DNA of 23,166 bases from a virus. The notes below the pieces were generated by a model. It saw only the letters and a list, made by a program, of their open reading frames with translations. It did not search any database and was not told the DNA's origin. Below, piece by piece: positions 5,728 through 8,281 of the stretch. The stretch lies in the IMG/VR virus record IMGVR_UViG_3300047297_000107, positions 1 to 23,166 of that record; one strand, written 5' to 3'. The position numbers and the translations under genes are program-made. How positions within the stretch are numbered: the first letter of the stretch is position 1; the number at the start of each line of letters is the position of its first letter.

Positions 5728-6196
5728 TTTTTAGTTTCTTTTCTAAGACATAAGACCAAACTGCACCACCAGAAACCTTTGCAATGAACTGAAGCGCCAC
5801 AATTTCAGGCATCAAAACGCCAAACGCTATAGTTGGGAACAACAAAGAATCCACCGCAGCACCAGCAGTATTGGAGATGTTTGCTCGCTTAATCCATGCA
5901 CCTGTTGTTTTTACAAATACTGCCCAATCCACTAAAGCGGCAACCAAGAATGACACGGCAGAAGCTACTGCAATCATGCCTGCGGCAGGGTTCAGCAAAT
6001 AAGTTAAACCTCCAGTTCCGATAATCAAACACCCCATTTGCCAAGTTTTAAGACGTACATGAAGCCAATCTCTTAATGTCAGATCAAGTCCGATTAGAAA
6101 AAAGGCGTTTATTGGGCTAATTGATGGGCCAAAGGTTGCCACCAAAAGGTTTGCCAAGGTCATTGCCACGGCATAAATAATTAAAGCAAAAATCAT
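5714..6196 (-). CDS. VUT/YhhQ-family transporter, likely 7-deazaguanine (preQ0) importer
   Basis: This 160-residue integral membrane protein has about five or six hydrophobic segments (roughly 1-20, 30-41, 52-68, 72-95, 115-135, 136-150). The signature GPSISPINAFFLIGLDLTLRD (23-43) and later VDSLLFPTIAFG are typical of the VUT family. E. coli YhhQ of this family imports preQ0 and preQ1, queuosine precursors. The ATG at 6196 overlaps the dpdA-like stop (ATGA) with AGGAA 8 bases upstream. An earlier ATG at 6235 would force a 43-base overlap. Its place next to a DpdA-like gene supports substrate uptake for DNA modification. It is shorter than E. coli YhhQ, known to be about 220 residues. Confidence 0.75.
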   Translation of the reverse strand: MIFALIIYAVAMTLANLLVATFGPSISPINAFFLIGLDLTLRDWLHVRLKTWQMGCLIIGTGGLTYLLNPAAGMIAVASAVSFLVAALVDWAVFVKTTGAWIKRANISNTAGAAVDSLLFPTIAFGVLMPEIVALQFIAKVSGGAVWSYVLEKKLKNVSL

Positions 6197-6933
6197 AAAA
6201 GTGTTTCCTGTTCCATTGGTTGATAAAAATTCCATTTAGAAGGGGCATTAAATGCCTCGATCCTAGAACGCATGATTTGCGCCCTTGCTTCCTTGGTAGG
6301 CGGCAAATAATTGCCATGCTTCCAATGCACATCAATCCCCACATTTCTGCCAATATTGGTGCTATCGGCTGATGAAAATGGTAGTTTGGTAAAGATTGCA
6401 GGGTCTAGCATCCTCAAACCATGCAGTTTGCAAGCAGGTCTTCCCATGTCATCACAAATAACCCGCATTGCCTGGCTCATCTTGACCCACCAAAGAGATG
6501 TACCTACTGTAGAAAACTCTCCAGAACTGCCAATGCAGACCCGAACATAGGTGTTTGCCAGTTGTTCTAGTCTCTCAAGGGATTCGTGCATATGCCAAAC
6601 TGGTGCGCCAAACCACTTAGGCAATGGGCAGTCTTTCAGCAGGGCATCGTTGTTTGCCTCGTTTCCATCAATGACATCGGGAATAACTGCAAAGTCGCAA
6701 GAAGGGACTTTTTTAAGGTCTAGCGACCAATCGTAGAAAGGCTGCCAATCAGTAATTGGTTTACCTTGTCTCCAAGCAGAGAATGCTCCATTGTCTATGG
6801 CGAAGGACTGACAGACCTCGATAGCTGATGCAAGTTGGTCAGAATGAGCAAACGAAACAAACGCATGACCACCTTCTATTGCTTTGACTGCTACTGTGGC
6901 AGGAGTTATTGGTAAGCCGTGATAGTGGATCAC
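6193..6933 (-). CDS. dpdA: DpdA-like TGT-fold transglycosylase (DNA 7-deazaguanine insertion)
   Basis: This 246-residue protein looks like a compact tRNA-guanine-transglycosylase-fold enzyme of the DpdA type, which swaps guanine in DNA for a 7-deazaguanine. FAIDNGAFSAW (44-54) parallels the TGT DSGGFQ loop, giving D47 as general acid/base. FAVIPDVIDG (81-90) supplies acidic base-binding residues. KLHGLRMLD (169-177) is followed by SSADSTNIGRN (187-197), which parallels the nucleophile loop ending in R-N, so D190 is the likely nucleophile. The TGT zinc motif is not apparent. The GTG start has AAGGAG 6 bases upstream and overlaps the preceding stop (GTGA). The transporter gene follows directly. 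A different TGT-fold role is the alternative. Confidence 0.62.
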   Translation of the reverse strand: MIHYHGLPITPATVAVKAIEGGHAFVSFAHSDQLASAIEVCQSFAIDNGAFSAWRQGKPITDWQPFYDWSLDLKKVPSCDFAVIPDVIDGNEANNDALLKDCPLPKWFGAPVWHMHESLERLEQLANTYVRVCIGSSGEFSTVGTSLWWVKMSQAMRVICDDMGRPACKLHGLRMLDPAIFTKLPFSSADSTNIGRNVGIDVHWKHGNYLPPTKEARAQIMRSRIEAFNAPSKWNFYQPMEQETLL

Positions 6934-7295
6934 GTTTTGCTCCTTAATTGAGCCATAGCCTGTCGGATGTGTTCAGGCATTGGTACGGCTTTTTTTCTAT
7001 CAGCATCAATCTTTGCCAATGCAGGATCAATTTGTGCTTCAACTTTGATCCCGAAGCCTTCAGGAATCTCAGCCCCATCCCATCTCTGTTGGTTCAGGTA
7101 GACCAAAGGTGCGGGAATAAAAGCACCATCGTCTTTTCTCCAAGCATCGGTTGTTTTCATCCACTCTATGTGTTTGATGATCTGGTCTGCACAGGTTTCA
7201 CAGTAAAACTTCTTCCACTTAACCAAACAAGCAGACTTCCCGCCTTTTCTAAACGACTTAGGCCATGTTGCCCAAAACTTCTCAAAGTTGTCCAT
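6930..7295 (-). CDS. Helicase-loader-like replication protein
   Basis: This 121-residue protein has the pattern FEKFWATWPKSFRKGGKSAC, then WKKFY, ADQIIKHIEWMK, and FIPAPLVYLNQQRWDGAE. The same series is found at the C terminus of many phage replication-initiation and helicase-loading proteins, here standing alone. It would act in recruiting the replicative helicase at the origin. The ATG at 7295 has AAGG 6 bases upstream; the ATG at 7301 touches that site and is less likely. It heads the operon running to 3468, immediately downstream of the structured non-coding region. Confidence 0.62.
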   Translation of the reverse strand: MDNFEKFWATWPKSFRKGGKSACLVKWKKFYCETCADQIIKHIEWMKTTDAWRKDDGAFIPAPLVYLNQQRWDGAEIPEGFGIKVEAQIDPALAKIDADRKKAVPMPEHIRQAMAQLRSKT

Positions 7296-7319
7296 GTCCA
7301 TCCTTTTTTAAATGATCCA

Positions 7320-7718
7320 TAACAATAAACAACTTCCCCATATTTGTTAATCAGTACTTTCCCTATATATGCTAGTTCAGTTCAGTCGGGTTCGAATTGG
7401 CAAATACTCACCTAATCCTGAGTTAACAAGATTAGTGAGTACCTATGCTAGTTTCAGACAAGTCTGGGACATACATTGGGCTATACCTTACTGATTGCAT
7501 AGCTTGCAGGATTACACGCCTCAGAGCGTCCTGTCTGCCCGTTCCTGCATCCCTTTCGGGTCACTCATGTGGGCTTGGCTTGGGACAGTTCCCCCGTAGC
7601 CTCTCAACACAGTTACGGCGGCCTTACGAGCGGTCTACCTGTGTCCAGTCTCTTATGGCTAGGTTCTGAGTCCTACTTTATTTGCAACGAACTTTGGTCT
7701 GCAATCCAATCAGTCCCC
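7320..7718 (-). other. GC-rich non-coding stretch with many helices
   Basis: No convincing protein frame was found in these 400 bases on either strand. The middle is GC-rich for this genome (35 of 60 bases at 7561-7620). Complementary pairs include TGCAGGA/TCCTGCA (7505-7511 with 7543-7549) enclosing ACGC/GCGT (7516-7519 with 7526-7529). Others are ACACAG/CTGTGT (7607-7612 with 7639-7644) enclosed by a bulged 7-bp helix (7594-7601 with 7657-7663), GCTAT/ATAGC (7480-7484 with 7499-7503), and a CCC-GAAA-GGG tetraloop hairpin on the minus strand (7551-7560). It may be an extension of the RNA at 7719-7876, an independent large RNA, or an origin. Confidence 0.45.
7405..7441. repeat. Long inverted repeat upstream of the replication gene
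   Basis: The arms at 7405-7417 and 7430-7441 (TACTCACCTAATC against GATTAGTGAGTA) pair over 12 bases with one bulged C and a 12-base loop. No T-run follows on either strand, so an operator, an RNA 3' stem or an origin structure is more likely than a terminator. Confidence 0.55.
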
Positions 7719-7876
7719 AAAAGCAAAAACCCCATAAATCACTCTGTGGTCTTGGCTCTTGGCGAGAGCAACAACAAACGATTGAACGGAATCAAAAGTT
7801 CGCCTGTTGTCAGGCAAGACCACACAGAAATCTATGGGGTTCTCTATTCCGTTCATCGCCTGATGCCACTCAGACG
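7719..7876 (-). ncRNA. Candidate structured RNA: three-way junction with pseudoknot
   Basis: Arms at 7730-7754 and 7815-7839 form a 25-position stem with only two mismatches. Its 60-base loop starts with a flush hairpin GCTCT/AGAGC (7755-7769) and ends with a flush hairpin CCTG/CAGG (7803-7814), giving a three-way junction. The single strand between them carries TGAACGGAAT (7783-7792), perfectly complementary to ATTCCGTTCA (7846-7855) outside the stem: a 10-bp pseudoknot. Two stem pairs are G-U on the minus strand but would be C-A on the plus strand. That fixes the strand, as do the upstream promoter and the T5-GC-T4 tract after the stem (7719-7729). The transcript would be about 155 nt. No known RNA family is recognised. 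Confidence 0.6.
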
Positions 7877-7882
7877 ATTTGG

Positions 7883-7909
7883 ATTATACACAAAACAAAG
7901 AAGTGTCAA
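7883..7909 (-). promoter_or_regulatory. Sigma-70-type promoter of the structured RNA
   Basis: On the minus strand TTGACA (7904-7909) and TATAAT (7883-7888) are both perfect consensus hexamers with a 15-base spacer, shorter than the optimal 17. The start site would fall near 7876. It follows the stop of the winged-helix gene and points into the non-coding region. Confidence 0.7.
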
Positions 7910-7918
7910 GAAGTTTTT

Positions 7919-8281
7919 TCAAATAAATTGATTATTTGTGATTTCATTTGTTTTCGGTCTGCCAAACAAACGAATAGCTTGGTTGTTCATAGAAGCATAC
8001 TCAGCCTTAGAGAAGATGCCCTTGGCGTTTCTAATGTCAAACGGGGTTAGCAGATCACGAGGCTCTTCTACCTTTTCAGCCTCAATCATGTGTGGTGCTA
8101 GGGTGTACTGAGAAACCCATGACCGACCCATTTTAACTTTTCCAATTGTTAATTTTTTCTTGTAACTCATCTTGGTGCAACAAGCTGCAATGGACAATCT
8201 TGGTATACCTGTTAAATCCTCTATTTGGTAGGATGTAAGTGGGCCATTCTGTAAGGCTCTGATTACTGCTTCTTGGGTCAT
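7919..8281 (-). CDS. Winged-helix DNA-binding protein
   Basis: This 120-residue protein has an N-terminal winged-helix pattern: MTQEAVIRALQNGPLTSYQI leads into a helix-turn-helix (GIPRLSIAACCTKMSYKKKL) and a wing (KVKMGRSWVSQYTL). A linker and basic tail (RLFGRPKTNE) follow. Phage proteins with this N-terminal set-up are transcription regulators or replication-linked. It overlaps the upstream small gene by ATGA, and it lies between an operator-like divergent region and the RNA promoter, so regulation of either is plausible. Confidence 0.65.
   Translation of the reverse strand: MTQEAVIRALQNGPLTSYQIEDLTGIPRLSIAACCTKMSYKKKLTIGKVKMGRSWVSQYTLAPHMIEAEKVEEPRDLLTPFDIRNAKGIFSKAEYASMNNQAIRLFGRPKTNEITNNQFI

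Follow-up and report, generated by a model that had tools for sequence, protein, structure and literature searches.

The minus strand of the 23,166-nt window, the whole stretch of viral DNA analysed here, encodes at positions 7719-7878 a structured RNA of ~160 nt (RNA-1) that is found in freshwater phages. It represents a new, strongly covarying RNA family with modular partners, and would remain so even as a plain structural RNA. Just behind its 5' hairpin lies a strand (s1) complementary to a second strand (s2) in the apical loop of the long stem, and the two have been exchanged between phages as matched pairs. On this basis we propose, with a probability of roughly 0.4, that RNA-1 is a conditional terminator with self-specific RNA pairing resembling CI control in phage P4; termination, read-through and pairing in trans are all inferred, and no expression data are available. 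Environmental phages carry the family widely, and the RNA-family library has no entry for it. Matched pairs that are exchanged inside an otherwise fixed RNA are what a recognition code should look like, a pattern that to our knowledge has so far been seen in plasmid copy control and in a few temperate phages. Were RNA-1 to act in trans, it would provide apparently lytic phages with RNA-based discrimination between self and non-self.

A structured RNA on the minus strand

The predicted minimum free energy of the element is −79.4 kcal/mol, compared with −46.8 ± 4.4 kcal/mol after shuffling (z = −7.5; 0/200 shuffles reach it). From 5' to 3' on the minus strand, a promoter is followed by a 5' hairpin, s1, the long stem enclosing hairpin 1, a CUUUUG linker, s2, a 13-nt linker and hairpin 2, and then by the 3' arm of the stem and a run of five U:

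7904-7909, minus strand: −35 element TTGACA (at least 4/6 matching in 88/112 homologues)
7883-7888, minus strand: −10 element TATAAT (at least 5/6 matching in 102/112 homologues)
7855-7878, minus strand: 5' hairpin of 9 bp (two-sided changes in 5/8 pairs)
7846-7855, minus strand: pseudoknot strand 1 (s1), hypervariable
7815-7841, minus strand: 5' arm of the long stem (99.3% of cells paired; 8 pairs with two-sided changes)
7803-7814, minus strand: inner hairpin 1, a variable junction arm of 4 bp (58.6% of cells paired)
7793-7798, minus strand: conserved CUUUUG linker preceding s2 (gene diversity 0.10)
7783-7792, minus strand: pseudoknot strand 2 (s2), hypervariable, complementary to s1 (46 variants in 113 sequences)
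7778-7782, minus strand: AAUCG extension of s2 that can pair with the 3' arm of the 5' hairpin (potential strand exchange)
7755-7769, minus strand: inner hairpin 2, GCUCUCGCCAAGAGC, 5 bp (its invariance stems partly from its use as a search pattern)
7728-7754, minus strand: 3' arm of the long stem, terminator-like
7725-7729, minus strand: U-tract (U5) abutting the stem (a run of at least 4 U in every aligned homologue)

The original prediction, made from the sequence of the window alone, had drawn a 25-position stem with two mismatches and two G-U pairs, and this stem holds both in the window and in the homologues. Twenty-three of the 25 positions (7815-7839 with 7730-7754) are paired, including the two G-U pairs, and the mismatches are U-U and G-G. 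Two extra A-U pairs (7840-7841 with 7728-7729) lengthen it, the first two U of the U-tract also serving as partners of the A-A at 7840-7841. Both hairpins predicted to lie flush with the long stem (7803-7814 and 7755-7769) are present in the window; in the homologues, hairpin 7803-7814 is not conserved as drawn, although an arm always stands in its place. The perfect 10-base pairing of 7846-7855 with 7783-7792 was correctly identified: its paired bases change together, and the core pseudoknot pairs occur as GC, CG, AU and UA. The overall design, a three-way junction with a pseudoknot, agrees with the homologues. Absent from the prediction were the 9-bp hairpin that starts the transcript and a further structured module directly after RNA-1; nor could one sequence reveal that the pseudoknot is the hypervariable part and the RNA one module of a larger non-coding locus.

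The predicted promoter and T-tract are likewise conserved. TTGACA and TATAAT, with a spacer of 15, form a σ70-type promoter, and nearly all −10 boxes in the 112 homologues stand at a single fixed distance from the 5' hairpin; transcription is expected to start near 7876. With the stem lying directly 5' of the U-tract and downstream of the promoter, the layout of an intrinsic terminator is present. The loop of the 5' hairpin, GUGGCA (7864-7869), is invariant across 108 homologues, and its UGGC could form a kissing contact with the GCCA of the hairpin 2 loop (CGCCA), an inference without support from covariation as these bases do not vary.

No Rfam 15 family reached its gathering threshold for the element, in keeping with the prediction that it belongs to no known family, and up to an E-value of 10 the only match was RsaE at 16 bits (threshold 79). 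A search for tRNAs and tmRNAs found none. Homologues were gathered from 159 phage contig stretches collected via neighbouring genes and with a 21-base core pattern, which listed more than 100 further matches; because this pattern covers hairpin 2 and a stretch of the 3' arm of the stem, their invariance is not used as evidence. More than 110 distinct homologues were found in IMG/VR phage contigs, and 113 distinct sequences of this RNA (class A) were read. BLAST searches of cultured phages and plasmids gave chance-level matches only, and pattern searches of ~85,000 GTDB genomes found no homologue, with 0 matches to the core pattern. The sole GTDB match to a looser pattern (L283) lies in GC-rich, ABC-transporter-like coding DNA, is not matched by the covariance model and was discarded as a chance match.

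Across 108 aligned homologues, 93.1% of cells form standard pairs, and the covariation score is 0.259 versus 0.103 for shuffled and 0.036-0.056 for slid alignments. Two-sided changes occur in 24 pairs (15.7 when shuffled). The minus-strand orientation is supported by the covariance model, which scores 186 bits on the minus and 45 bits on the plus strand, and by pairs that require G-U in one orientation. These two results, together with the promoter at a fixed place in front, also count against a coding sequence or a DNA-level dyad (operator or recombination site) mistaken for RNA. A 120-codon open frame on the plus strand does cross the region (7569-7931), but no frame is conserved: at most 46% of 112 homologues lack a stop codon in any one frame, and indels of 1-2 bases are frequent. 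The homologues have already refuted this reading, to which we attach almost no weight, and we consider the structure of the RNA settled with very little doubt.

Matched variation in the pseudoknot

While the frame of the RNA is almost unchanged, its pseudoknot strands are hypervariable, with a gene diversity of ~0.6 compared with 0.13-0.15 in the stem and 5' hairpin. Complementarity to s1 over the full length of s2 was observed in 89/113 sequences, versus 5.5 expected (maximum 12) with strands shuffled among phages. Among 25 locus pairs with flank divergence of at most 5%, not all of them independent, 13 carry the same variant, 10 differ at 4-5 of ~9 bases, two at two bases and none at one. 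Relatives within this limit show 6- to 18-fold more differences per site in s2 than in the flanks. Loci L192 and L231, for example, differ at 9/590 flank positions and at 5/8 positions of s2, and L027 and L041, whose scaffolds are identical, differ at 8/8 core positions, with 10% divergence at four-fold sites of rep. The unpaired linker between s1 and the stem is as diverse as s1 itself (0.66 versus 0.60) and is exchanged along with it, suggesting that pairs already matched travel on short recombination tracts. Over all pairs, pseudoknot diversity is about that of four-fold sites of rep, so that selection for diversity is suggested, not proven.

Pairing of s1 with s2 has a calculated energy of −10.3 kcal/mol for self and −2.3 kcal/mol for non-self combinations. 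The variants show no orthogonality beyond chance, 3.6% of non-self pairs being cross-reactive compared with 0.3% when letters are shuffled. Third copies of s1 and s2 in the phage loci are not in excess (20 and 20, versus 24 and 20 on permutation), indicating that the partner is the RNA itself. Covariation cannot separate pairing within one molecule from pairing between molecules.

The 3' extension of s2 (AAUCG and variants) covaries with the 3' arm of the 5' hairpin (−5.38 versus −4.43 kcal/mol shuffled; 0/200 reach it). All 103 of the 103 sequences tested could form an extended s1-s2 duplex of 13-17 bp that opens the 5' hairpin, as a strand exchange would require.

Sister phages carry a different 5' RNA, class B, in the same gap. 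Its 5' hairpin has a loop of GU and five variable bases that pairs with a strand lying within a long stem of terminator type, and the match is perfect in 28/28 sequences comprising 7 variants. The class A covariance model does not detect class B, and no homology across the classes was found; the same device is thus found in two RNAs that show no detectable similarity.

Genomic setting and possible functions

A small upstream gene and a replication-initiation-like gene (rep) border the 617-bp gap that contains RNA-1:

7919-8281, minus strand: small upstream gene, probably DNA-binding
7356-7715 (approximate), minus strand: RNA-2, delta type, second structured module (95-99% conserved in a dozen relatives)
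6930-7301, minus strand: replication-initiation-like gene, downstream (phrog_9474, E 1e-14)
6193-6933, minus strand: queuine tRNA-ribosyltransferase-like gene, after rep (phrog_887, E 2e-69)

In genome G002, the homologue of the upstream gene probably corresponds to the member showing weak MarR/HTH_5 matches. The queuine tRNA-ribosyltransferase-like gene possibly serves 7-deazaguanine DNA modification; some relatives have cytosine methylase genes in its place.

RNA-2 starts directly after the U-tract of RNA-1, and other phages carry other module types in its place. Directly after RNA-1 stands one of at least five such types: alpha, beta, gamma, delta or a single one. The beta module, at a minimum, occurs behind class A and class B alike, so that the whole is a self-standing non-coding locus. 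RNA-1 precedes the rep gene family in 91/116 loci. In two of them (L036 and L040) rep starts ~35 nt behind RNA-2, which leaves little room for another promoter, and the only promoter recognised is therefore probably separated from rep by the terminator-like stem. At nine loci RNA-1 lies instead behind the terminase large subunit gene (L166, L169, L178, L187, L229, L237, L250, L258 and L273), and eight of the nine, those read long enough, also contain alpha RNA-2. In the two terminase-side loci that were read (L166 and L169), the gene behind the RNA has its own promoter-like site, so replication control is not universal.

The phages are probably lytic. No tyrosine integrase was found in 20 records of relatives, several of 33-38 kb, although other routes to lysogeny were not systematically covered. 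One 36-kb genome encodes an SU10-like portal, a terminase, a Sak-type annealase and RusA, and neither an integrase nor a lysogeny gene appears among its reported families.

We envisage that the stem acts as a conditional terminator ahead of RNA-2 and also, for the majority of the phages, ahead of the replication operon. The s1-s2 pairing, extendable to 13-17 bp by opening the 5' hairpin, would set the ease with which the stem folds as the RNA is transcribed. Terminated copies would build up and expose their s2 (or s1) to transcripts newly made from the same variant, and the RNA would thereby gauge the copy number of its own phage and ignore phages of other variants, an RNA-level self-recognition as in the P4 CI RNA and plasmid copy control. 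Cross-talk during mixed infection would favour swapping the pair as a block. Sequence comparison lends this model its support, which may be drawn from the covarying helices and pseudoknot, the 46 variants, their replacement as blocks in near-identical backgrounds and the same logic in class B, and likewise from the covariation of s2 with the 5' hairpin, the energies of self and non-self pairing, the lack of a third copy, the promoter position and the RNA-2/rep layout. Against it, the variants found in nature exclude one another no better than random ones do, and the block pattern could arise from short-tract recombination with no selection involved. As neither an integrase (20 records) nor a lysogeny gene (36-kb genome) was found, lysogenic immunity of the P4 kind does not fit, and control of copy number or of co-infection would have to be meant instead.

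A serious contender, though not our preferred reading, is a plain structural pseudoknot: an intramolecular s1-s2 helix keeps the 5' domain docked on the long stem, any pairing sequence suffices, and the RNA acts via its conserved parts, e.g. by binding a host protein. The diversity would then be old neutral variation moved by short recombination tracts anchored in the conserved frame. Compensated variable helices are normal in structured RNAs, and this explanation accommodates the s1-stem linker that is as diverse as s1 and exchanged with it, the similarity of pseudoknot and four-fold rep diversity over all pairs, and the lack of excess orthogonality. By our estimate the fold is also possible in cis, since an 8-nt extended linker plus the helix width, with mostly 4-9 nt beside the stem, can span its 25 bp. 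It accounts less well for the far lower sequence variability of the other helices of the same RNA, for differences in s2 that exceed those in close flanks many-fold and never involve a single base, and for the same matched variability in class B; a static fold, moreover, does not need the 13-17 bp option that opens the 5' hairpin.

Self-assembly, in which s1 would pair with the s2 of a neighbouring molecule to build a phage-specific chain, ring or cage with RNA-2, seems improbable to us. A three-way-junction RNA with two complementary segments far apart and a large, ornate second module would suit it, as would the nine loci adjoining a terminase gene. There are also precedents, in that contacts of ROOL and GOLLD read as tertiary from covariation proved intermolecular (PMC12286853) and interlocking loops differ among the pRNAs of different phages (PMC5340915). 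However, there is no sequence match to Rfam families, RNA-1 normally sits in the replication region, its U-tract would cut it off from RNA-2, and pairing in cis is not excluded. Still less likely is an antisense regulator whose loop-exposed s2 pairs with a third RNA of phage or host and is merely masked by s1. The conserved CUUUUG and CAAUCG flanking a variable core do resemble a seed in a fixed frame, but the s1 and s2 copy counts in phage loci do not exceed permutation, a result that does not cover host targets. The ROOL/GOLLD work demonstrates that covariation cannot separate the structural reading from self-assembly (PMC12286853).

The conditional terminator finds its closest parallel in P4, where an untranslated leader before the replication genes has mutually complementary segments (seqA, CI and seqC) linked to transcription termination (PMC4825925). 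Here too the complementary segments lie within the leader of a replication operon in most loci, the nine terminase-side loci excepted. Unlike in P4, the terminator stem encloses s2, and action in trans is unproven. We do not file RNA-1 as a member of the CI family: it has no further target copies (P4 has seqA and seqC on either side), no tyrosine integrase was found in the 20 records of relatives, unlike in temperate P4, and it is not always before rep. In plasmid antisense control of the ColE1/IncB type, variable complementary loops beside a replication gene define who recognises whom; there the partner is transcribed from the opposite strand, whereas both pairing strands of RNA-1 are on one RNA. 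We regard as doubtful, with action in trans only inferred, a more general form of RNA self-recognition, in which at least two apparently unrelated RNA families, each a conserved frame with exchangeable matching strands, would let transcripts recognise only their own copies during infection and so control replication or coexistence without a protein specificity factor in apparently lytic phages.

Three other groups of phage RNAs share single traits with RNA-1. Rfam families include pRNA, ROOL and GOLLD. RNA-1 resembles the φ29-type pRNA as a phage three-way-junction RNA with complementary segments varying by phage, although its segments are much longer; it has no Rfam pRNA match, ends like a terminator and usually lies beside rep and not beside packaging genes. 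Complementary segments also differ between phages in φ29-type pRNA (PMC5340915). Short loop segments of the C4 antisense RNA of P1 and P7 set specificity between related phages (PMC12197685), and RNA-1 is similarly a folded phage RNA with variable segments that may set specificity; C4, however, pairs with ant mRNA, whereas the complement here lies within the same RNA, and Rfam gave no C4 match. ROOL and GOLLD are phage-borne, multi-domain RNAs with covarying long-range pairings and unknown function (PMC12286853). RNA-1 is also phage-borne with a covarying long-range pairing, but matches neither in sequence or structure, and is ~160 nt long and ends in a U-tract.

Further structured modules

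RNA-2 of the window contains a direct repeat, AACTAGCATA, in two copies with a spacing of 76:

7444-7453, minus strand: inner copy of the direct repeat in RNA-2
7368-7377, minus strand: outer copy of the direct repeat in RNA-2

A covarying direct repeat, X, to which these two copies correspond, was observed in alpha-type RNA-2 at 71 loci (e.g. L041, L166 and L272). It is 7-10 nt long with ~75-nt spacing and flanks the last RNA-2 hairpin in the form TGGCTCC-X ... CACC-X. Repeat X has 33 variants, with a mean shared run of 7.7 nt (4.5 nt when shuffled), and no consistent complement of the RNA-2 direct repeat was found. A tRNA-like reading of GGTTCGAATT (~7389, plus strand) was discarded, as no tRNA was called there.

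Gamma-type RNA-2 (GGCTAGGGGGCAGTTCCCGAAYAATC...), found in L212, L222 and L265, is a large structured RNA without an Rfam match, and in L222 it is followed by a hairpin leader of a further type, class C. Class C leaders (L082-L160) lie directly behind the homologue of the 7919-8281 gene and before other replication genes. The stem of their 5' hairpin is hypervariable yet paired, and conserved CUCCUGC...UUCCUU segments follow. Finally, a deletion in L025 (484-986) has removed s2, both hairpins and the RNA-1 terminator and fused the 5' part to RNA-2; this could be a read-through mutant or an assembly error.
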